From a virus, in the IMG/VR virus record IMGVR_UViG_3300028676_000003, positions 62,001-126,000 of that record: a stretch of DNA of 64,000 bases. One strand, 5' to 3'. Under the pieces are notes generated by a model. The model was not told the DNA's origin, ran no database searches, and worked only from the letters and a program-made list of their open reading frames with translations. Shown piece by piece: positions 8,228 to 63,367 of the stretch. The translations under genes were made by a program, and so were the position numbers. The first letter of the stretch is position 1, and the number at the start of each line of letters is the position of its first letter.

Positions 8228-9319
8228 ATGGAAAGAGTTATACAAAAACTAGAAAGAGCTACTATACCTCTTGTATCTAGTGTCATTAAAGACGAATTTA
8301 TCGCTGCAAGTGAAACTGCTTTTGACTGTGCTTTTAACGGTACATCAACATTTTATCCTTGGAAGATGCCCGATATACCTAAAGACTTCAAGTTAGGAAT
8401 TATCGTAGGTTCTTCAGGTTCGGGGAAATCTACACTTCTTAAAGAATTTGGTACAGAAGAAGTTCCTGTTTGGGAATCTGACAAATCAATCATATCACAT
8501 TTCGAAACACCAAACGATGGAATCAACAAGCTTATGGCCGTTGGACTGAATTCTATACCGTCTTGGTACAAGCCATATCACGTATTATCCAATGGTGAAA
8601 AATTTAGAGCTGATTTAGCACGCAAATTACGCACGAACTGTGTCATAGATGAGTATACTTCCGTTGTAGATAGAAACGTGGCTAAGGCGGCTTCTGTGAG
8701 CTTATCTAAGTATGTTCAAAGACATAAGTTAAGTGGAGTTGTTTTATCGACGTGTCATCATGACATTGTTGATTGGTTGGAACCTGATTGGGTTTTGAAT
8801 ACAGATACAGGTGAATTAATTCACGGTTTTTTTTTTAAAAGACCAAGCATCGATATTGAAGTATATCGCACAACAAATGAAAGTTGGCGAATGTTTAAAG
8901 ACCATCACTATTTAACTGGAAACCATAATTCAGCTTCAAGATGCTACTTGGCTGTTTGGAACGATACCGTTGTTGGATTTGCCAGCGTAATTACTATGCC
9001 TAGCGGAACCGTTAAGAATGCGTGGCGTGGACATAGGAGTGTTGTCTTGCCTGATTTTCAGGGAATGGGAATTGGTGTGAGATTTACTGAGGCTGTTGCT
9101 CAAATTCACTTGGATGAGGGACATAAGTTTTATTCTCGTACAGCTCACCCAAAGATGATAGAGTATAAGACTGCATCACCTTTGTGGAAACCGACTAGTA
9201 AAAATAAGAAGCTAAGAAAAGATGTTACCGATGATAATACCTTTAAGAATCACGTTTACGATAATAAACGTTTATGTGGTAGCTTTGAGTATATTGGTCC
9301 TAAACAAGACCAATCTTAA
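8228..9319 (+). CDS. ABC-type ATPase fused to GNAT acetyltransferase
   Basis: 363 aa. The N-terminal half is an ABC ATPase: Walker A GSSGSGKST (residues 61-69), signature LSNGE (120-124), Walker B VIDE (139-142) followed by a D-loop-like SVVD, and the switch histidine in STCHHD (175-179). No membrane segment is present, so it is not a transporter subunit. The C-terminal half (about 215-340) has the GNAT AcCoA-binding pattern VVLPDFQGMGIGVRFTEAV. It resembles soluble ABC-GNAT fusions seen in phages, whose substrate I do not know. It has its own late-type promoter motif. The 3' end overlaps the convergent gene by 20 nt. Confidence 0.85.
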   Translation: MERVIQKLERATIPLVSSVIKDEFIAASETAFDCAFNGTSTFYPWKMPDIPKDFKLGIIVGSSGSGKSTLLKEFGTEEVPVWESDKSIISHFETPNDGINKLMAVGLNSIPSWYKPYHVLSNGEKFRADLARKLRTNCVIDEYTSVVDRNVAKAASVSLSKYVQRHKLSGVVLSTCHHDIVDWLEPDWVLNTDTGELIHGFFFKRPSIDIEVYRTTNESWRMFKDHHYLTGNHNSASRCYLAVWNDTVVGFASVITMPSGTVKNAWRGHRSVVLPDFQGMGIGVRFTEAVAQIHLDEGHKFYSRTAHPKMIEYKTASPLWKPTSKNKKLRKDVTDDNTFKNHVYDNKRLCGSFEYIGPKQDQS

Positions 9320-16147: not shown

Positions 16148-16870
16148 ATGAAAAACAATAACATAAATGTAAACCCAATTGGTTTAAAAGGTTCTGAAGT
16201 TAACGCTCGTATGAAAGAGTTAATGGGAATTAGCACTATCAACGAAAACAAAACCAATTCTAAGGTTGAATTAACTAAGATTGGTCCTGATGGGAAGTCT
16301 TATGCTATCATAAGAGAAAACCATAAATACTTTATCAAAAGCAGTGAAAAAACCAAAGGTTTAATTGCTGAAGATTTTAGCTACATTGGTGGTTTAAAAA
16401 ACAAAACTTCTGAAGCTTACGATTCATATGCTAGTGCTATCAAACACTTGAACATCAACTTTAAATCACTTGCTGATGCACATGGTCAAGGTGGTGATAT
16501 CAACGTGTTCAAAAACGACAACTTGATTAATGAATCAGGTGTTGCTGGATTCTCTAATCATAGTGGTAACGGTTTCTCAGGTGCTGGTAACATGGAAGGT
16601 AACACTCCATTATACGAAGATACTGAAGAAGTAACTGAAGGTTATGATGACGAACCATACTACGACGATGTTAAAGGTAAAAAAAGCGACAGATGGGATT
16701 CTGATGATGCTGACGACAAAGAAAGCGATGATGCTGATGATATGTCAGAAGCTGAATTGGCTGTTGATGCTATCCTACAAGAAACTGAAGGTAAGAGATT
16801 ATCTATCCGTTTTGCTATGGAGAACATGGACGCTATCATTGAGTCTATCGACGTAAAAAAAAAAGACTAG
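16148..16870 (+). CDS. Virion-type protein, short (unshifted) form
   Basis: 240 aa in the zero frame, ending VKKKD-stop just after a run of ten A. The N-terminal half (KSYAIIRENHKYFIKSSEK, then GLIAEDFSYIGGLKNK) is a compact folded domain. The second half is acidic and low-complexity (DRWDSDDADDKESDDADD). It contains (L/I)xE sites such as LINE and ILQE. Probably a structural or head-core component. The product is shorter than the coding potential of the locus because the next frame continues without a start codon. Confidence 0.6.
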   Translation: MKNNNINVNPIGLKGSEVNARMKELMGISTINENKTNSKVELTKIGPDGKSYAIIRENHKYFIKSSEKTKGLIAEDFSYIGGLKNKTSEAYDSYASAIKHLNINFKSLADAHGQGGDINVFKNDNLINESGVAGFSNHSGNGFSGAGNMEGNTPLYEDTEEVTEGYDDEPYYDDVKGKKSDRWDSDDADDKESDDADDMSEAELAVDAILQETEGKRLSIRFAMENMDAIIESIDVKKKD

Positions 16871-17715
16871 TTAAAGAAGAAAAATATACATTAAAGGTTG
16901 CGAGCCCTGCGCCAGCACCTGTTCCACAACCCCAAGAACCAGCACCTACTGCTGGTTTTGGTGCTTCTGAAAACCCTGAACCAACTGATAAACCATTCAA
17001 CGATGAACCGTTTGATGCTGGTGTTGAGGCCGATGAAGAAACAGACCCAAAAAGATACATTGAACAATTAACTGGAAAGCTTGGACAATCACTTAGACAA
17101 TATACGTCTAGTATTGGTCGTCCTGATTTCGACCTTGAAAAGTTCGCAATAAATTCATTATTGTCAGCTACTCATACCGCTGAAATGGATGAAAAAGATA
17201 GAGAAGATATAATAACTAAAGTTAACACAGCTGGTAACAATGATGACGATTCAGAGAATTCTGATTTTGATAGTACTGACCGTACTCCCGATAATAACGA
17301 TGGTAGTAACGATGGGGGTAATGATGAGTTTGGCGGTGATGCTGAATTTGGGAATGATAACGATGAAGAAGACTTGGAAGAAGTCCAAATATACGAAAAC
17401 GAAAGTCTTTTTCTTGAAGAGCCAGTGAGATGTAATATGTTTCAGCATGGGTCGAATGATATTTTAGATGAAACTCTTAATGAGGGCTTGATTAATCAAA
17501 AAAAAAGTAGTATCTTTGAAAAAAGATATTTAAAGTCTAAATTACAAGAAAGTTTTAATCAAGAAGAAGAAATGAAGAACAACGAAGAACCATTAACTGC
17601 ACCTGCGCCTGTCGTTAAACCTGACGTAAAGCCTGACGTGGCACCAAGTAGAAGAAATAAACCCTTCTTACCGATGCCTGAAGTGCAACCAGACCCTAAA
17701 GCTAAGAATGAGTAA
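16148..17715 (+). CDS. Virion-type protein, long form by -1 frameshift
   Basis: Shifting back one base in the A10 run (16855-16864) joins the 240-aa frame to a frame open to 17715, giving about 522 aa. The joined part reads RLVKEEKYTLKV, then a Pro/Ala linker (PAPAPVPQPQEPAPT), a helical module (RYIEQLTGKLGQSLRQY ... FAINSLLSATH), an Asp/Asn-rich acidic stretch, and LNEG and LQES sites. The first ATG in the second frame lies inside the helical module, so it is unlikely to start there. Programmed slippage, or a sequence error in the A-run, would both explain this. Confidence 0.7.
16855..16864 (+). other. A10 slippery run at a frame junction
   Basis: Zero-frame codons GTA AAA AAA AAA GAC TAG. 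The A-AAA-AAA heptamer permits -1 tandem slippage, and the run also suits transcriptional slippage. The zero-frame stop follows 4 nt after the run. Confidence 0.65.
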
Positions 17716-20507: not shown

Positions 20508-20562
20508 ATTACCCATAAATTAGGAGTAATCTTGTAACCCTTAATTTTTAGGCATTTGCGAC

Positions 20563-20570
20563 ATATTTAT
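20563..20570 (+). promoter_or_regulatory. ATATTTAT late-type promoter motif
   Basis: GACATATTTATAAGAAAC, 21 nt before the terminase ATG at 20592; it lies within an upstream in-frame extension, arguing for the later start. Confidence 0.55.
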
Positions 20571-20591
20571 AAGAAACTAAAACTTATAATT

Positions 20592-22361
20592 ATGTTAACA
20601 ACAAATGAAATATTTAAGGAATATTCTAAGTGTTTGATGAATCCAGCATACGCTATTGAAACGTATTTGGAAACATTCGATAAAACACAAGAAGGTTTTG
20701 TGCCGTTTAAACTATTTCCAAGACAGCATGAAATTATCAAAGCATACGATAAACACAGATTTAATATTGTAACAAAACCAAGACAAGCTGGTGTATCAAC
20801 AACTACTGCCGCTTATATGTCTATCAAGGTTGGTTGGGCTGACCCTGAGAACCCTGAGAGTATTCTTATTATTGCCAATAAACAAGAACTTGCATTTGAG
20901 TTCTTAGGAAAGATTAAAGATTTCTTAAGACAACTTCCAAGATGGGTTTGGGGTGAAGAATACTATGGAACACCACAAAAAGAAGGTAAATCTATTTTTA
21001 ATACAGATTCAAAAAAAGAAATCAAATTACCAAATGGAAGCCGTGTTAAAGCCGTTGCGACATCTAAGGATGCCCTTCGTGGATTTACACCAACTTATCT
21101 TGTAATGGATGAGGCCGCTTATATTGATAATGGAGCTGAGGTGTTTGGTGCCGCTCTTACATCGTTAGGTACTGGGGGTAGAGCTACCCTTATTTCTACA
21201 CCTAATGGTATGGATGCTTTATACTACAAAACATATGACCAAGCTATCAATAAAAGAAATAACTTTAATGTTATTGAAATGAAATGGTACGAAGACTTAC
21301 GTTATAATAAAGACTTACGTTGGATTAGAGGTGATGAAGAAGAAGAAGAACCTGATAAGTTATCATTCGCAACATATGAACAAAGAATCAAGGACGGTTG
21401 GAAACCAACATCTTCTTGGTATGAGGAAATGTGTCTTGGTATGAACAACGATGAAAAAATGATTGCTCAAGAGCTTGATGTATCATTCATTGGTTCAGGG
21501 GGTAATATCATCAACGAGAAATATATAGAATATCAAGAAAAAAATAATGTTCAAAAACCAATGTTATATTTTGGGCCTGAACAAGAAACTTGGGTTTGGG
21601 CTGAACCTAAAGAAGGACACCAATACATTATGGGTGTCGATGTAGCTAGAGGTGATGGTGCCGATGCTTCAACTATTGTTATTATTGATTTTACAACAAT
21701 GGAACAAGTTATGGAATACCAAGCTAAGATTCAACCCGATTTGCTTGCACACGTTGTGTTTGAATGGGGTAATCGTTATAAAGCTTATACTGTCGTAGAT
21801 ATTACTGGTGGTATGGGTGTTTCTACAGTACTTAAGCTTCTTGAATTAAACTACAAACACTTACACTACGATACTACTGTTGGGAAGATTCTTTCACCTA
21901 AACAAAGAAATATGCAAATTATGAATAATTCTGAAAAAATCCCAGGTTTCCAAGCCAATGGTGTACGTACATCTATGGTTGCAAATCTAGAATACAGAAT
22001 TAGAGAAAACCACGTAAAGATTCGTTCATCAAGAATGATTTCTGAAATGAAAACATTTATCTATGATAAGAATGGTCGTCCTGACCACATGGCTGGATAT
22101 CATGATGATTTACTTATGTCACTAGGTATGGCTTTATGGGTATTGGATAATTCATTCAAAAATTTAGAAAGACTTGAAGCTCAAACTAAAGCTATTCTTA
22201 ATTCTTGGATGAGTACTGGAACTCAACACACTTTGAATAGTGTTGATGCTAGTGGTAAAGAGGTAAGAAAACCAGTTCATGCGAAGCCATTTGTGAACCC
22301 ACGTGACCCAAAAGGTGAACATATGTGGTTATTTGCTGGTATGGCTGGTAATAAAAGGTAA
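20592..22361 (+). CDS. terL: Terminase large subunit (T4 gp17-like)
   Basis: 589 aa from ATG 20592 (MLTTNEIFKEY); the frame is open from ATG 20556 but that start lies upstream of the promoter motif. ATPase: adenine-motif region, Walker A KPRQAGVST (62-70), Walker B LVMDEA (170-175), coupling motif ISTPNG. Nuclease of RNase H fold: GVDVARGDGADAST, VVDITGGMG and HDDLLMSLGMAL supply the acidic metal ligands. It powers DNA translocation into the prohead and cuts the concatemer. The next gene, the portal, is its docking partner. Confidence 0.96.
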   Translation: MLTTNEIFKEYSKCLMNPAYAIETYLETFDKTQEGFVPFKLFPRQHEIIKAYDKHRFNIVTKPRQAGVSTTTAAYMSIKVGWADPENPESILIIANKQELAFEFLGKIKDFLRQLPRWVWGEEYYGTPQKEGKSIFNTDSKKEIKLPNGSRVKAVATSKDALRGFTPTYLVMDEAAYIDNGAEVFGAALTSLGTGGRATLISTPNGMDALYYKTYDQAINKRNNFNVIEMKWYEDLRYNKDLRWIRGDEEEEEPDKLSFATYEQRIKDGWKPTSSWYEEMCLGMNNDEKMIAQELDVSFIGSGGNIINEKYIEYQEKNNVQKPMLYFGPEQETWVWAEPKEGHQYIMGVDVARGDGADASTIVIIDFTTMEQVMEYQAKIQPDLLAHVVFEWGNRYKAYTVVDITGGMGVSTVLKLLELNYKHLHYDTTVGKILSPKQRNMQIMNNSEKIPGFQANGVRTSMVANLEYRIRENHVKIRSSRMISEMKTFIYDKNGRPDHMAGYHDDLLMSLGMALWVLDNSFKNLERLEAQTKAILNSWMSTGTQHTLNSVDASGKEVRKPVHAKPFVNPRDPKGEHMWLFAGMAGNKR

Positions 22362-22409: not shown

Positions 22410-24476
22410 ATGGCAGATAAAAAATTAACAATATTTAATAGATTAGGTCAAGTACTTAATCCTAACTATATTGCGACAAAGCAACAACAACCATCTCAAA
22501 GATACAATATCGGTAGTAACGAATTACTTAGAACCGATAGTAAAGCTGAGTATGAGCGAGCAAAGTTACAAGCGATGCAAAACAAATTGCTTGGAAATAC
22601 TTGGAAGAAAGTTGAAACTGGACTTTTCCAACAATCGATTAATTATGAAACAACACGTATTGGTTCATATTCTGATTTTGAAGCAATGGAATTCTACCCT
22701 ACGATTGCGGCCGCTTTGGACGTAATGATGGAAGAATCTACAACAATCAACGATAACGGTAGAATCATGAATATCTATTCAGATAGCAAGCGTGTTAAGG
22801 GTATCTTAGAGGACCTTTTCTTCAACAGACTTGACGTACACACTGCTTTACCTATGTGGACTAGAAATACGTGTAAATACGGGGATAATTTCGTTTATTT
22901 GAACATCAATGATACTCATGGTATTCTTGGTGCTAAGCAAATGCCTAATTACGAAATGGAACGTAGAGAAACTGGTTTATTTGATATGGTTTCAGGTAGA
23001 GAATTACCTGAAGAAGAACAAACAACTACAGATAAGGTTAAATTCTTTTGGAGAGGTCGTGATGTTGAATTCAACTCTTGGCAAATTGCTCACTTTAGAC
23101 TTCTAGGTGATGACAGACGTTTACCTTATGGAACTAGTATCTTAGAGAAAGCTAGACGTATTTGGAAACAACTTGTATTATCAGAAGACTCTATGCTTGT
23201 GTATCGTGTTACACGTGCGCCTGAGAGACGTGTTTATAAAATTTATGTTGGTAACATTGATGATGCCGATGTGGAAGCTTATGTAAATACAATTGCTGAC
23301 AGATTTAAAAGAACTCAAGTTATTGACCCAGCGACTGGACAAATTGATTTAAGATTTAACCAATTGGCTAATGACCAAGATTACTTTATTCCTGTTAGAA
23401 GCGAGGATGCTCCTAACCCTATTGATACACTGCCTGGGGCTCAGAACTTGGACCAAATTGCTGATATTGAATACTTACAAAGAAACTTATTTACTGCACT
23501 TCGTGTACCAAAGCCTTTCTTAGGGTTTGAAGATACAGCTGGTGAAGGTAAAAACTTAGCATTACAAGATATTCGTTTCTCTAGAACAATCAATAGAATT
23601 CAACAATCTATGCTTCAAGAGATGAATAAACTAGCTATCATTCATTTATACATTCTTGGTTTTGAAGAAGAATTGGATAATTTTACTCTTACGTTGAATA
23701 ATCCTTCTACACAAGCTGAAATGCTTAAGGTTGAACACATGCAACAAAAAATTACTCTTCTTAAAGATGCAGTTTCTGATACTGGTAACGGATTTGGTGC
23801 AATGTCTTGGACAAGAGCTCACAGAGAAATCATGGGTTGGTCAGATGATGATATCAAACAAGATTTACTTGAACAACGTATGGAAAAAGCAGCGGCCGCT
23901 GAGTTGGCTAATTCTGCTAACGTTATCAAGCATACTGGTATGTTCGATACTGTTGATAAGATTTACGGTGATTACCAAGTAGCACTTAATGGTGGAATGC
24001 CTGAAGGTGGTGCTCCTGCTGAAGGTGGTGAAGAAGGTGCCGCTGGTGGTGGACTTGGTGGTTCATTCGGTGGTGGCGGTGGTGGAGGTGAAGACCTTGA
24101 CTTCGGAGCTGATGAAGAAGAAGTAGACTTGGATGCTGAGGCTGATGGTGGAGATTTTGGTGGTGAAGAAGGTGGAGATGTAGATGCTGGCGAGGCACCT
24201 GACGGAGACGCTGTAGAAGCACCTGCTGAAACTGTTAACGAGTCTATTAGAATATACGAAAAGAAACTTCTTAATGAGAAGGTTCAATTAAGTAAAAGAC
24301 TTGAGCAAAGAACTCAAAAATACCAAGGAAAATGGATTGATGCTTTGATTGAGAATTTCGTTCATGACAAAAAAGATAAAAGTGTTGAGAGTATTAAAAT
24401 GACCGATAAGAATATCAAAATAAATGAAGGTGTTGATTCTATGATAAAAGATATCAATAATATGTTAGATGAATAA
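22410..24476 (+). CDS. Portal protein (T4 gp20-like)
   Basis: 688 aa. The core (about 50-530) has the gp20 hallmarks: FEAMEFYPTIAAALDVMMEE, NTCKYGDNFVYLNI, LPYGTSILEKARRIWKQL, RAPERRVYKIYVGN and a long channel helix region. It forms the dodecameric vertex through which DNA enters and leaves. Unusual: a long Gly/Glu/Asp-rich insertion (about 530-605), then a charged helical tail with the site TVNESIRIYEKKLLNE. That tail may be trimmed or contact the core. It follows the terminase without a separate promoter motif. Confidence 0.93.
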   Translation: MADKKLTIFNRLGQVLNPNYIATKQQQPSQRYNIGSNELLRTDSKAEYERAKLQAMQNKLLGNTWKKVETGLFQQSINYETTRIGSYSDFEAMEFYPTIAAALDVMMEESTTINDNGRIMNIYSDSKRVKGILEDLFFNRLDVHTALPMWTRNTCKYGDNFVYLNINDTHGILGAKQMPNYEMERRETGLFDMVSGRELPEEEQTTTDKVKFFWRGRDVEFNSWQIAHFRLLGDDRRLPYGTSILEKARRIWKQLVLSEDSMLVYRVTRAPERRVYKIYVGNIDDADVEAYVNTIADRFKRTQVIDPATGQIDLRFNQLANDQDYFIPVRSEDAPNPIDTLPGAQNLDQIADIEYLQRNLFTALRVPKPFLGFEDTAGEGKNLALQDIRFSRTINRIQQSMLQEMNKLAIIHLYILGFEEELDNFTLTLNNPSTQAEMLKVEHMQQKITLLKDAVSDTGNGFGAMSWTRAHREIMGWSDDDIKQDLLEQRMEKAAAAELANSANVIKHTGMFDTVDKIYGDYQVALNGGMPEGGAPAEGGEEGAAGGGLGGSFGGGGGGGEDLDFGADEEEVDLDAEADGGDFGGEEGGDVDAGEAPDGDAVEAPAETVNESIRIYEKKLLNEKVQLSKRLEQRTQKYQGKWIDALIENFVHDKKDKSVESIKMTDKNIKINEGVDSMIKDINNMLDE

Positions 24477-26455: not shown

Positions 26456-27181
26456 ATGGATATAAATTATAAAGATTTAAAGGTATTAAAACGTGGTGAA
26501 AGTGGAACAGGTTATCTTATTGAACAAGATGCTGGTTATATTTCACCTGACGAACCAAGAAATCAACCTTTCATTAACGAAATCAAGAAACTTGATGGTG
26601 GAAACAGACTAGCGATAGTTGAGCCGCTTATTGTTTTCGTTGTACTACAAAAATACGGTATTCTTAACCGTAATGGGAGAATCTATCCTGAAGCAATCTT
26701 AAGAAGACAAGACCAATTATATCAACAAGCGATTAAAGAACGTAGAGCTGTAGGTGAATTAGACCACCCTGAATCTAGTATTATTGCTGGTGACAGAATA
26801 TCTCATAACATCATTGAAACATGGTGGGAAGGACAAACTCTTATGGGTAAGATGGAGATATTGATGACTCCTGGGTTTATTAATTATGGTATTGTTTCTA
26901 CTAAAGGAGACGAAGTTGCAAATTTACTAAGAAATAGAATTAAGATTGGTGTATCTTCTAGAGGTGTTGGTTCACTTAAAGAAGGTAGAAATGGTGAGCA
27001 AATTGTTCAAGAGGATTTCGAGATTATTTGTTGGGACGTAGTAACGGCTCCATCAACTCCTGATGCTTGGATATTCAGAAGTCACGAAGAATCTAGACCT
27101 TATGTTGAGAACGTAGAAGTGAAAAAACCACTACTAAAAGAAAGCTTAAATGATGATTTGGATAAATTTTTATCTGAATAG
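26456..27181 (+). CDS. Prohead core protease (T4 gp21-like)
   Basis: 241 aa. Characteristic blocks: YGILNRNGRIYPEAIL, AVGELDHPESS with candidate catalytic His104, and IGVSSRGVGSL with candidate nucleophile Ser167 or Ser168. These match the gp21 (S77) serine protease family, which assembles inside the prohead and cuts head proteins after (L/I)xE. The C-terminus itself carries PLLKE-SLND, a probable self-processing site. It precedes the core and capsid genes in T4 order. The unusual number of possible substrates in this window is discussed in the findings. Confidence 0.93.
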   Translation: MDINYKDLKVLKRGESGTGYLIEQDAGYISPDEPRNQPFINEIKKLDGGNRLAIVEPLIVFVVLQKYGILNRNGRIYPEAILRRQDQLYQQAIKERRAVGELDHPESSIIAGDRISHNIIETWWEGQTLMGKMEILMTPGFINYGIVSTKGDEVANLLRNRIKIGVSSRGVGSLKEGRNGEQIVQEDFEIICWDVVTAPSTPDAWIFRSHEESRPYVENVEVKKPLLKESLNDDLDKFLSE

Positions 27182-28625: not shown

Positions 28626-30452
28626 ATGTCACACTTATTAACATCTGGACAAGTTGGAAATATCGGATTAAACCACATGAAGGCTATCCGTAAAGAGACT
28701 CAATCTAAATGGGATTCATTAGGATTCCTTGACGGTCTTAAAGGTCACGTTAAAGAGAATATCGCTCAATTATACGAAAACCAAGCGTCAACATTATTAA
28801 CTGAAAGCACAACGACAAACTCTTCAGGTTCATTCGAAACTGTAGTTTTCCCAATCGTTCGTAGAGTTTTCTCAAAATTATTAGCTAACGATATCGTTTC
28901 TGTACAAGCTATGAACATGCCAATTGGTAAATTGTTCTACTTCGTACCAGTTACATCAAGCCGTGTGGATGCTTTAGGTAACCCTGGTTCTGATTACGCT
29001 GCAAACGGTGGTAACGGAGCTTACGCAACTCAATACTCTGCACACACAGGTATGGCGGCTCAAGGTCTTCCATCATGTGTTGTTGGTTCAGGTTGTACAC
29101 TTACTCCATTCGAGGGTAAAAACTTATACGATGCATTCTACAATGACGGTTTATTTGATAACTCAAAAGGTACTCTTACAATCGTTGCAGGTGGATATAA
29201 CGTATACACTTTAGGTATTGACGGTAAATATACAGTTGCGACTGGAGCTGCTCAATTACCAACAGCTAATGACGGTTCATTAAGAGAAGTTGTTATCGGT
29301 ATCACTGGATTCTCTCCAAACGTACACGCTAAACAAGTTATGACAGGTGCTAACGGTGACCCAATGGACACTGAATCATTCTTAGCTTCATTACACGTTC
29401 TTTCAACTAATGCAATTTTAGATAAAGATGGTAATACAATTATCGCTGCTGGTAAGGAAATTCCTTTCAGATTAGTAACTCAACAATACGGTAGAGGTAT
29501 CGTAGACTACACTAACTTAACAGATACTTCAGGTACTCTTTATGTTGCTTTAGATTTACGTCACCCTGTTGGAACATCTGCTGGTGTTATTGGTGGTGCT
29601 GGAACATCAACTTATGATGGTTACGTTGGAGCTTCTGCTTCTACAGTATCAGCGTTTACTTTCACTGCGGCTTGGGCTGAGTACGCTACATTAGAGCTTG
29701 AAACTGAAATGGGAGAGGTATCTTTCAAATTAGATGAAATCGTTGTTGCGGTTGAAGAAAGAAAATTACGTGCTACATGGTCTCCTGAGTTAGCTCAAGA
29801 CGTTAGTGCATTCCACAACATTGATGCAGAAGCTGAATTAACAGCTATGTTATCTGAGCAAGTTGCTGCGGAAATCGATAGAGAAATCTTGAGAGAGTTA
29901 CGTAAAGCTGGTGCTTGGCAATTAAGATGGGATTACAACGGTTGGAGAAAAGCTTCTACAGCGGCAAGCCCATACACACAAAAAGACTGGAACCAAACTT
30001 TAATCACTAGATTAAACCAAGTTTCTGCACAAATCCACAAGTCTACTCTTAGAGGTGGTGCTAACTTTATCGTAGTTTCTTCTGAAATCTCTGCTATCTT
30101 TGATGATTTAGAATACTTCCACGTAAGTGATGCTAACCCAGAGCAAGACCAATATAACATGGGTATCGAAAGAATCGGTTCTTTATCAGGACGTTTCCAA
30201 GTATACCGTGACCCTTATGCTCCAGCTTATTCAATTATCATTGGACACAAAGGTAAATCATTATTAGACACAGGGTATATCTATGCTCCATACGTGCCTC
30301 TTCAATTGACACCTACAATGTTTAATCCGTTTAACTTTGCGCCAGTAAAAGGTATCATGACACGTTATGCTAAAAAAGTGGTTAACAACAGATTCTACGG
30401 ACACGTAAGAGTTGACGGTGTACCTACATTCGACGTAAACGAATTAAGATAA
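28626..30452 (+). CDS. Major capsid protein (T4 gp23-like)
   Basis: 608 aa. The N-terminal segment ends in LYENQASTLLTE (48-60), then STTT. L-T-E60 matches the gp21 cleavage consensus at nearly the position where T4 gp23 is cut (after residue 65). Then VVFPIVRRVFSKLLANDIVSVQAMN, the start of the HK97-fold body, a long insertion with beta content (about 110-370), and RKLRATWSPELAQDVSAFHNIDAEAE, a strongly gp23-like block. It forms the shell hexamers. It is longer than T4 gp23 (521 aa) through the central insertion. A terminator follows. Confidence 0.95.
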   Translation: MSHLLTSGQVGNIGLNHMKAIRKETQSKWDSLGFLDGLKGHVKENIAQLYENQASTLLTESTTTNSSGSFETVVFPIVRRVFSKLLANDIVSVQAMNMPIGKLFYFVPVTSSRVDALGNPGSDYAANGGNGAYATQYSAHTGMAAQGLPSCVVGSGCTLTPFEGKNLYDAFYNDGLFDNSKGTLTIVAGGYNVYTLGIDGKYTVATGAAQLPTANDGSLREVVIGITGFSPNVHAKQVMTGANGDPMDTESFLASLHVLSTNAILDKDGNTIIAAGKEIPFRLVTQQYGRGIVDYTNLTDTSGTLYVALDLRHPVGTSAGVIGGAGTSTYDGYVGASASTVSAFTFTAAWAEYATLELETEMGEVSFKLDEIVVAVEERKLRATWSPELAQDVSAFHNIDAEAELTAMLSEQVAAEIDREILRELRKAGAWQLRWDYNGWRKASTAASPYTQKDWNQTLITRLNQVSAQIHKSTLRGGANFIVVSSEISAIFDDLEYFHVSDANPEQDQYNMGIERIGSLSGRFQVYRDPYAPAYSIIIGHKGKSLLDTGYIYAPYVPLQLTPTMFNPFNFAPVKGIMTRYAKKVVNNRFYGHVRVDGVPTFDVNELR

Positions 30453-30480: not shown

Positions 30481-30516
30481 AAAAAAAGACCCACCGATAT
30501 GGTAGGTCTTTTTTTT
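30481..30516 (+). terminator. Intrinsic terminator after the capsid gene
   Basis: AAAAAGACC and GGTCTTTTT arms form the stem, with T8 at the end. Confidence 0.8.
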
Positions 30517-30525
30517 GTTTTTAAG

Positions 30526-30533
30526 ATATTTAT
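30526..30533 (+). promoter_or_regulatory. ATATTTAT late-type promoter motif, 4-nt spacing
   Basis: GATATTTATTAATATG: the motif ends 4 nt before ATG 30538. The longer frame from ATG 30499 would start upstream of the motif. Confidence 0.55.
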
Positions 30534-30537
30534 TAAT

Positions 30538-30993
30538 ATGAAACATACAATAAAAAAACTACTTAGAGAATCTCTATTGAAAGAATCATTATTAGATAAT
30601 GATATTAAATCTTTAATAAGAGATACCAATGTTTTTGCTTCTTTTGGGAATCCATATGGGTTTAAAGAAAATAAAATAATTGGTAGAAATACTGATATAT
30701 TAGATAAGACTGTACCATATGAAGGAACTGATTTTAGAATTGCTGTAACTCCATTAGGTGACAAAAAAAAGTTAAGTATACACTTTCCACAAATTGAACA
30801 AACTTCAAGTAGAGGTGGTGGTCATGCTGGATTAAGTTTTCTATTTGATAATGATGTTGTAATAAATAAACAATTGGTTAATATGTTGCTACCAGCTGTT
30901 GATGATTTTAGAAGTCAAAATTTTACATTAAACAATGGTGTTTATCAAATAAATACAAATAATCCTAGCGAAATGAAACCTGTTAATCTTTAA
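30538..30993 (+). CDS. Tagged cargo-like protein (151 aa)
   Basis: N-terminus MKHTIKKLLRESLLKES. L-R-E (9-11) before Ser fits the prohead-protease consensus, and the first 11 residues match those of the - strand gene at 34389 (MKHIIKKLLRE) except at one position. The rest differs: a mixed alpha/beta domain with DFRIAVTPLGDKKKLSIHFPQIEQ and a Gly-rich loop (SSRGGGHAG). Start is fixed by the promoter motif. Inferred to be packaged in the head; enzymatic role unknown. Confidence 0.65.
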   Translation: MKHTIKKLLRESLLKESLLDNDIKSLIRDTNVFASFGNPYGFKENKIIGRNTDILDKTVPYEGTDFRIAVTPLGDKKKLSIHFPQIEQTSSRGGGHAGLSFLFDNDVVINKQLVNMLLPAVDDFRSQNFTLNNGVYQINTNNPSEMKPVNL

Positions 30994-33738: not shown

Positions 33739-34389
33739 TTAGTCATATTTTGAGAAAAATAAATCAGAACCACTCTTGAAAGCCTTGATAGGGTTGAATC
33801 CTTTCTTAATATAATTTTGTCCACGGCCAAGCATTTCTTTGAAATCATCATTGGGTTGCATCGAATAAACAGTATTATATTTTTTTATCAGCTCTTGAGT
33901 TTCAGGGTTAATTTCACTTAACCATTCCTCATATTCTTCAGGGTTTTCAAATGTGTCGTTACTACCAGTATATAATGCAACACTAAATTCTGGGTTCCAT
34001 TTACCACTGGCATCAAATGGTGCAATGTTTGTTTTATTAACATCAGGTCTATCATAAAATTTAACCCATACATTCAATGCTTCACTTCTAACGTCACCTT
34101 TTCTAGCTGGCATAAGTCCTTTACCCTTCGTACTAGCCATCATCATAGCCATTTCGTAGATATAAGGCCCGAAACCATCTTCTGCGGCCACTTTATCCAC
34201 ATCGAAATTTTGACCTCTTAGAGAGGCTGAAATCACGCCATATGATTTATTGGTCATAGGGTCATATAAGACAAGACTTATCCTGTTATCCTTTTGGAAT
34301 AACGCAGTTTCTATTGGTAGATTTTTTGATGTAAGCATAGTTTCTCCTAATAGATTTTCTCTAAGTAATTTTTTAATTATATGTTTCAT
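33739..34389 (-). CDS. Tagged cargo-like protein (216 aa)
   Basis: N-terminus MKHIIKKLLRENLLGE, nearly the same as that of the gene at 30538, with L-R-E ending at residue 11. The body contains VYDPM-like strands and the block DGFGPYIYEMAMMMAST, GLMPARKGDVRSEAL and VWVKFYDRPDV. That block resembles a motif I associate with hypothetical proteins of large phages, possibly GNAT-related, without a proven activity. It follows the structural gene at 34392 by 2 nt and shares its late-type promoter. Inferred head cargo. Confidence 0.65.
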   Translation of the reverse strand: MKHIIKKLLRENLLGETMLTSKNLPIETALFQKDNRISLVLYDPMTNKSYGVISASLRGQNFDVDKVAAEDGFGPYIYEMAMMMASTKGKGLMPARKGDVRSEALNVWVKFYDRPDVNKTNIAPFDASGKWNPEFSVALYTGSNDTFENPEEYEEWLSEINPETQELIKKYNTVYSMQPNDDFKEMLGRGQNYIKKGFNPIKAFKSGSDLFFSKYD

Positions 34390-60961: not shown

Positions 60962-63367
60962 ATGGCAGATAAAAAAATATCACAGTTACCTAATGGTACC
61001 ATAACACCTGAAACAATATTTCCTATTGTTGCATTGGATGTAACTTCGCAAACATCATTTAATGACCTTGTTGATGCTTTAGAACCTTATTTTAGTGGTT
61101 CTACTTCAGGTGGAAATCACTATATGATTGGTTGGGAAGTTGAACAAGAAGTTGGGTCAACTGAAACTATCGGTATAGGTAAAGGGAAAATCCGTTTAAC
61201 AAATGGTTCAAACGAAATTTTAGGTATTGATGGAGTTATATTCTCTGACACAAAAGGATATAATTCACCATTTTCAACTGGTGAAATAACAGTTATTTTA
61301 CCAAATTCATTCGGTAATAGAAGATATATAACTATGGATGATTATACTGATGACACTCATGGTACATTTATTGAAATTTTTTATGATAATAGATTAGAGG
61401 GTTCAATTGGTAGTGTTTGGGATGGTGAGACTGGTGATTATGAGTATTATGCTTATCTTATTGGAGCAACAACAAGACTTGCACATGCTGAAGGTGAAGC
61501 TACTCAAGCATTTGGTCAACGTTCACATGCTGAAGGTCTTAGAACAACTGCTAGTGGAAATTATTCACATGCTCAAGGTTCAGGTAGTATTGCTAGTGGT
61601 GATTATTCACACGCTATGGGTGCAGATACAACAGCAAGTGGTCAATTTTCATTTGCTGGTGGTGTTAATTCATTTGCAGAAGCTGACTTTTCATTTGTTT
61701 TTGGTAGCCAATCAACAGCTAGTGGTAACCATACTTTTGTATTAGGTACTAATATGACTGGAACAAATGATAACACAACATATGTTGATAGACTTAATGT
61801 TAGAACTATTGGTAGTAATTCACCAGTTATAAATTTAGGACTTGATTCTAATGGAAATGTTGTTACTGGTAGTACTGGTGGCGGTGGTTCAAGTGTTTGG
61901 GTTGCTAGTAACGGTGCAAACTCTGCTGTTATTCCTAATTTAAACAATATTGCTTATGGTGTTGGTGCTATTGCTCATGGTACAGGTACGACTGCCGCAG
62001 GTGCTTATTCACATACTGAAGGTTCAGGTACAACTGCATCAGGAAACTCAGCTCACGCTGAAGGTATGGGGTCAAGAACCCAAGGACAAGCCGCTCACGC
62101 TGAAGGTACTAATACAATTGCAAACGCAAATAATGGACACTCAGAAGGTTTAAATACTATCGTTTTAGGTGAAAATGCTCACGCTGAAGGTGAAGGTACA
62201 TCTGCTACAACAAGAAATGCGCATGCTCAAGGTTCAGGGACAACAGCATCAGGTAATAACTCACATGCTGAAGGTTCAGGTACTGTTGCATTCGGACCTA
62301 ATTCACATGCTGAAGGTTCTAATACTCAAGCAACTGGAAGTTTTTCACATGCTGAAGGTCTTCAAACTCAAGCATCAGGAGATGCATCACATGCTGAAGG
62401 TTATGGTAGTGTTGCTTCAGGTCTTTATTCACATGCTCAAAATGATACAACAATTGCTAGTGGAACATATTCACATGCAGAAGGTCATGGTGCTCAAGCT
62501 ATTGGTTATACTTCACACGCTGAAGGAAGCTCAACAGCTTATGGTTATTATTCACACGCTGAAGGTAATTCTACTGCCGCTAATGGTGACTATTCACACT
62601 CGCAAGGTAATGAAACAACCGCTAATGGTACTTATGGTTTCGTAGGTGGTTTCCAATCAACAAGTGTTGGTGAATCATCTTTTGCATATGGTACTAAGGT
62701 GAATGTATCGGGTGATTGGTCAGTTGGTACTGGAACTGGTTCAACAACTTCTAATGAAGGTTCATTTGTTCACGGTTCAGGTGCTACTTCTGATGGTCTT
62801 TGGAGTGTTGCTTTTGGTAGAAACACACAAGTATCAGGAGATTGGTCATTTGGTGCTGGTGCAGGTGTAGTTGTATCAGGTGAGTCATCTGTTGCTTTTG
62901 GATGGAATAGTATTGCTGGTGGTTATGCATCTTGTTCTATTGGTGAAAACAATAGAGCTTTAGGTTCTCGTAGTACTGCATTTGGTAGTGGTACACATGC
63001 AAATGACCAATGTTCTTTCTCTTGGGGTCAAAATACACAAGCTAACGGTGCTGGAGCAACAGCCTTTGGAGCAACAACACAAGCTAACGGTGGTGGGTCA
63101 TTTGTTGGTGGTTACTTAAGTAATGCTGACGCTAATAACTCATTCGTATTTGGTTCTGCATCAACTACTAATTCTAATGCTGACTGGTCATTCATTTTAG
63201 GTAATGGAATTACAGCAAACACACCAAATACAGTATTTGTTGAAAGACTTAGTATCAAGACAGCTGGTCCATATGCAAATGATGCGGCCGCAGATGCTGA
63301 TGTGAGTCTTGCATCAGGTGGTCTTTATACTCTAACAGGTTCAAGAGTTGTTTATAGAAAACCATAA
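60962..63367 (+). CDS. Long YadA-like repeat tail fibre
   Basis: 801 aa. Residues 1-40 (MADKKISQLPNGTITPETIFPIV) match the start of the 283-aa protein at 6496, implying one attachment domain used by two fibres. Residues about 45-165 form a beta domain. The rest is about 34 tandem 14-residue YadA-like repeats in two blocks, split by NTTYVDRLNVRTIG...VINLG and closed by NTVFVERLSIKTAG. No S74 chaperone domain is present, unlike the neighbour. The C-terminus is only about 25 residues after the last module. It is probably a trimeric host-recognition fibre. Confidence 0.85.
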   Translation: MADKKISQLPNGTITPETIFPIVALDVTSQTSFNDLVDALEPYFSGSTSGGNHYMIGWEVEQEVGSTETIGIGKGKIRLTNGSNEILGIDGVIFSDTKGYNSPFSTGEITVILPNSFGNRRYITMDDYTDDTHGTFIEIFYDNRLEGSIGSVWDGETGDYEYYAYLIGATTRLAHAEGEATQAFGQRSHAEGLRTTASGNYSHAQGSGSIASGDYSHAMGADTTASGQFSFAGGVNSFAEADFSFVFGSQSTASGNHTFVLGTNMTGTNDNTTYVDRLNVRTIGSNSPVINLGLDSNGNVVTGSTGGGGSSVWVASNGANSAVIPNLNNIAYGVGAIAHGTGTTAAGAYSHTEGSGTTASGNSAHAEGMGSRTQGQAAHAEGTNTIANANNGHSEGLNTIVLGENAHAEGEGTSATTRNAHAQGSGTTASGNNSHAEGSGTVAFGPNSHAEGSNTQATGSFSHAEGLQTQASGDASHAEGYGSVASGLYSHAQNDTTIASGTYSHAEGHGAQAIGYTSHAEGSSTAYGYYSHAEGNSTAANGDYSHSQGNETTANGTYGFVGGFQSTSVGESSFAYGTKVNVSGDWSVGTGTGSTTSNEGSFVHGSGATSDGLWSVAFGRNTQVSGDWSFGAGAGVVVSGESSVAFGWNSIAGGYASCSIGENNRALGSRSTAFGSGTHANDQCSFSWGQNTQANGAGATAFGATTQANGGGSFVGGYLSNADANNSFVFGSASTTNSNADWSFILGNGITANTPNTVFVERLSIKTAGPYANDAAADADVSLASGGLYTLTGSRVVYRKP
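61470..61745 (+). repeat. YadA-like coding repeats, block 3
   Basis: About six to seven 42-nt units encoding AHAEG/SHAQG-type repeats at the start of the 801-aa fibre shaft. Confidence 0.8.
61950..63220 (+). repeat. YadA-like coding repeats, block 4
   Basis: About 27 to 28 tandem 42-nt units. The first 16 or so keep SHAEG; later ones drift to SFVHG, SVAFG, SFSWG. Confidence 0.85.

Follow-up and report, generated by a model that had tools for sequence, protein, structure and literature searches.

Two long reading frames of a large T4-like phage meet at a run of ten A. The question raised by this locus is whether slippage at the run joins them into one gene with two products and, if so, whether it is the RNA polymerase or the ribosome that slips. 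The window analysed here is a stretch of 64,000 nucleotides (positions 62,001 to 126,000) of a 369-kb virus record (IMG/VR record IMGVR_UViG_3300028676_000003), and positions given below are those of the window. Judged from the sequence and its relatives, the two frames are very probably joined by programmed slippage. The reading preferred here, with a probability of roughly 0.6, is that RNA polymerase slips at the A run and one gene thereby gives two proteins, the product being a probable head core or internal protein that is cleaved.

The split gene and its A10 run

The zero-frame ORF (16148-16870, plus strand) encodes 240 amino acids: a leader, a conserved beta-beta-beta-alpha N-module (about residues 39-112), an acidic linker, and a C-terminal helix that ends in V-K-K-K-D-stop. 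The run consists of exactly ten A (A10; 16855-16864, plus strand) and is read in this frame as GTA AAA AAA AAA GAC TAG, placing the TAG stop (16868-16870, plus strand) one codon past the run. The -1 frame stays open between the run and 17715. Its extension (16865-17715, plus strand; 283 codons) contains a VKE site, a Pro/Ala linker, a three-helix module, and an acidic disordered tail, and the joined product is about 522 amino acids long. No ATG, GTG, or TTG occurs in the -1 frame ahead of the TTG at 17161, which is some 100 codons into the frame and within a conserved domain, so that the extension would be accessible by slippage only. A preliminary description made from these letters had proposed the join at A10, products of 240 and about 522 amino acids, a -1 frame lacking an early start, and a linker, helical module, and acidic tail in that frame. 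All of these are borne out.

The join is no chance effect: runs of at least nine A occur at about 27 separate places in the 369-kb record, and only the A10 at 16855-16864 joins two long frames. A10 is likewise present there in a second contig of the same phage, which is identical along 12.7 kb. Three other homopolymers of this phage may be recorded. An A9 (17498-17506) lies within the long-form frame, and slippage there would truncate the long form. A T10 run (8827-8836) is in frame inside an ORF with a P-loop motif (8228-9319). Another A10 of the same NNA AAA AAA AAA form (L053:1501-1510; G000, about 233,777) is in frame in a 286-aa gene.

Conservation among relatives

Relatives were collected from public viral contigs, searched with each half of the gene and with alignments. 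The yield was 252 loci in which a run lies close to the join, and many of them duplicate a contig already collected. A first set of 95 junction loci represents 54 lineages (less than 90% nucleotide identity over a 255-nt core), and in all loci together the split and the run recur in 73 lineages. The run is A9 in six of these, A10 in 62, A11 in four, and A12 in one; no lineage of the 73 has A7 or A8 at the join. The join is to the -1 frame in nearly all split lineages. L144 (A9) has a +1 join, and L276 keeps A10 (2498-2507) with the N-module and core in one frame; both arrangements would speak for the polymerase, each is from a single contig, and each could be a homopolymer miscall. L254 and L255 have one frame and no run. 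L099 and L335, in which several frames are broken in a way that resembles read errors, were set aside.

In a tree of the core domain, 74 split rows together with L254 and L255 fall in one branch (support 100/98) against 22 single-frame rows. The tree is built on few columns and its inner forks are weak, and on it the split lineages form one well-supported clade. Among the relatives outside this clade, 20 distinct lineages were compared, and in all of them a single ORF encodes both N-module and core and no run exceeds A8. In three distant single-frame relatives (L024:7012-7020, also L025 and L026), an A9 lies one codon ahead of the stop, with 89 open codons continuing in the +1 frame; this may be an independent slip site or simply a small gene that follows. 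No other run of at least nine A or T joins frames in 564 kb around the relatives, where each remaining match is either this run read on the opposite strand or a normal gene end. Among named phages nothing matched one of the halves or a single-frame relative, and genome contigs gave no match.

Selection on both frames and on the run

Many pairs, not independent of one another, were compared, and their median dN/dS is 0.29 for the zero frame and 0.30 for the -1 frame. By this measure, both sides of the join evolve as protein under purifying selection. Insertions on either side of the run preserve the frames (e.g., in the L004 group, 150 amino acids inserted directly behind the run).

Where the run is in its common phase, the three AAA are preceded by TTA, GTA, TCA, GGA, ATA, or CCA. 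The residue varies and the final A is always kept. The codon phase of the run itself differs in several lineages, three phases having been found, with a similar length and the join retained. Elsewhere in the same loci, only two of 122 xKKK motifs have A10. In these genes AAA makes up 83% of Lys codons, and third-position A is at 39%. If 47 lineages are counted as independent, although they are not entirely so, the chance products come to about 10^-11 and 10^-19. The run is kept at the nucleotide level, whatever the codon phase and the encoded residues.

A conserved inverted repeat downstream

An inverted repeat that could form a hairpin (16896-16931, plus strand) starts 32 nt 3' of the run. 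Compared with synonymous recoding, its signal is moderate in this phage (p of 0.02-0.03) and strong across the family. The hairpin of the relatives starts mostly 25-45 nt 3' of the run, with variable spacing. Compared with dinucleotide shuffles, folding is in excess between +20 and +80 nt (mean z of -2.9 at +30), and there is no general excess of structure at +0, directly at the run. Compared with synonymous recoding under local codon usage, z is -2.3, and p is at most 0.05 at +24 in 74% of 54 lineages; little is seen elsewhere in the gene. The single-frame relatives (20 lineages) have no downstream folding excess.

In two sets of four sequences, four and eight pairs have changed on both sides of the stem; these sets were picked for shared stem length, and they illustrate covariation rather than test it. 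The hairpin of L004 is a different one, at +42, within unrelated inserted sequence. In that locus (L004:1052-2605) the 150-aa insert immediately follows the run and brings its own hairpin at the usual distance. Mismatches in the stems comprise 30 G-U and 42 A-C. This is no strand preference, and sense RNA and an inverted DNA repeat are not told apart by it. A pseudoknot formed by pairing of the loop with upstream sequence was looked for by eye only and is not supported. On these comparisons the inverted repeat is conserved beyond coding and would make a third part of the slippage module.

The product and its gene neighbourhood

In structure prediction the N-module folds, at good local confidence, into three strands plus a helix. 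The -1 part is predicted as a three-helix module, with modest confidence, plus long disordered stretches. Sequence searches of Pfam, PHROGs, and PDB and fold searches with the N-module model gave no useful match. The linkers contain four [LIVM]xE sites in which Glu is nearly invariant (36 of 37, 33 of 36, 36 of 37, and 41 of 42 members), one of them a few residues past the join.

The gene lies in a cluster on the plus strand with head genes. Family matches identify the terminase large subunit (20556-22361; the listed ORF starts at TTG, and the 589-aa form from the ATG at 20592 was used in searches) and the portal protein (22410-24476). A prohead protease of the T4 gp21 type, Peptidase_S77 (26456-27181; E 1.2e-24), is the candidate protease for the [LIVM]xE sites. 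A 608-aa ORF (28626-30452) is probably the major capsid protein, judging from its position and its LLTE|STTTNSSGS site. Two further genes (30499-30993 and 33739-34389) share a leader, MKH(T/I)IKKLLRE(S/N)LL, near the starts of the listed ORFs, and it looks like a protease-cut, capsid-targeting leader.

Four near-invariant [LIVM]xE sites, in a product encoded in the same cluster as terminase, portal, and Peptidase_S77, make it likely that this is a core or internal protein of the head, cut during maturation at [LIVM]xE by Peptidase_S77. The assignment to a structural gene of the head block, made in the preliminary description, agrees with the neighbours; no homologue of known function was found, and it is position and the protease-type sites that point to a structural protein.

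Alternative explanations for the interruption

Runs of ten A are error-prone in sequencing, and the split might be an artefact of sequencing or assembly or the mark of a decayed gene. What makes this extremely improbable is that 73 lineages, sampled independently, are interrupted identically and at one position, that both frames are under purifying selection, that the run length is conserved, and that the second frame has no start codon. It had been suggested beforehand that reads with A9 or A12 would mark a plain assembly error. This is wrong: A9 and A12 lead into a closed +1 frame, and it is A8 or A11 that gives one frame. The two frames also overlap by a few codons, like coupled genes. They could be distinct genes, translation of the second beginning at a start of its own or reinitiating at the stop. 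No ATG, GTG, or TTG is common to the lineages at the head of the -1 frame, the first one in the window is inside the conserved domain, and the outside relatives have both parts in one frame. Two genes are therefore very unlikely too, if slightly less so than an error. On the evidence of the relatives, both assembly error and an independent start were rejected; no independent start of the second frame was found in them, and slippage is not refuted.

The serious alternative is programmed -1 ribosomal frameshifting on A_AAA_AAA within the run, with distant help from the downstream hairpin, to which we would give about one chance in three. The heptamer is present inside the run in every lineage, in the common phase and in the other phases seen. 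The -1 direction found almost everywhere suggests ribosomal frameshifting by a published rule (PMC3711429) and counts against the polymerase, for which joins in both directions were looked for among orthologues and only the single +1 and in-frame contigs turned up. The covarying 3' hairpin, selected beyond coding and absent from single-frame relatives, is of a kind that commonly accompanies ribosomal frameshifting, and it is hard to see what it would do for a slipping polymerase. SD-like pairing upstream shows a slight enrichment (30% versus 16% of controls). However, A7 or A8 would suffice for a ribosome, and none of the 73 lineages is below A9. Stimulators of ribosomal frameshifting typically lie 5-9 nt after the slippery site, whereas the hairpin here starts mostly 25-45 nt past the run with varying spacing, and the stem mismatches do not mark sense RNA as the functional strand. 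A ribosome held at the hairpin might leave a trailing ribosome on the run, which is a geometric guess.

Polymerase slippage as the preferred explanation

Slippage on long A runs is reported to be possible during transcription, translation, or replication (PMC3711429), and in bacteria RNA polymerase is reported to slip on runs of nine A or T (PMC5009743). All 73 lineages have a run of this size (9-12 A) at the join. The heptamer needs only seven A and no lineage has fewer than nine in any phase, which indicates transcriptional slippage; the floor of nine A and the freedom of codon phase together favour polymerase slippage over a ribosomal -1 shift. We infer that the polymerase, not the ribosome, is the slipping agent. 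Programmed slippage with a short and a long form, as proposed in the preliminary description, is strongly upheld by the conservation in 73 lineages, and its ribosomal heptamer is not the best fit. No phage-encoded RNA polymerase beta subunit is found in the 369-kb record, which may be incomplete. Note that both mechanisms may act at such sites according to a review (PMC5009743).

Under polymerase slippage, normal reading would end just past the run and give the 240-aa short form. Slippage of RNA polymerase on A10 would produce a fraction of transcripts with one extra A (A11). Ribosomes on these transcripts would continue in the -1 frame to about 522 amino acids, adding the three-helix domain and the acidic tail. 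The product would then be cut at [LIVM]xE by the phage Peptidase_S77 prohead protease.

Significance and comparison with known systems

Most known cases of conserved slippage on long A runs are in bacterial genes and insertion sequences. Phage cases in the cited literature are ribosomal, and a family-wide example in a probable head gene of large phages would add a new setting. The natural variation (runs of 9-12 A, three phases, an in-frame copy, loss, single-frame outgroups, and a compensated hairpin) makes polymerase versus ribosome directly testable. Gene callers will split this gene in two, and the long form is likely to be absent from annotations. A more far-reaching and doubtful reading is that large T4-like phages carry an undescribed recoding module: A9-A12, a stop soon after, and a covarying repeat 25-45 nt 3' that governs slippage in a way without precedent and sets the ratio of two protease-processed forms of a head protein. 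Control in such a module might be exerted by a downstream element on polymerase slippage, or by a distant hairpin via queued ribosomes.

The closest precedents for the run are dnaX of Thermus thermophilus (A9) and two-ORF dnaX genes (A10), which likewise have 9-10 A and short and long forms (PMC5009743, PMC3711429); the dnaX genes with A10 are attributed to transcriptional slippage (PMC3711429). Unlike dnaX, the gene described here is in a phage head block, in a family with a conserved downstream inverted repeat. The lambda gpG/gpGT tail assembly chaperone and the major head protein of phage A2 also obtain a longer form through a -1 shift, there by the ribosome (PMC5009743, PMC10885494). Those shifts use a heptamer, whereas here there are 9-12 A, a hairpin far from the site, and a probable head core protein in place of a tail chaperone. 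In Roseiflexus IS630, nucleic-acid structure is likewise combined with a slippery run in stem-loop-assisted transcriptional slippage (PMC5009743), but the stem-loop there lies directly 5' of the run and here the hairpin lies 25-45 nt 3'. The prohead core and internal proteins of T4 that are cut by gp21 resemble the product in being encoded near terminase, portal, Peptidase_S77, and a probable capsid gene and in having [LIVM]xE between modules. Unlike them, it has no detectable relation in sequence or fold to a known member.
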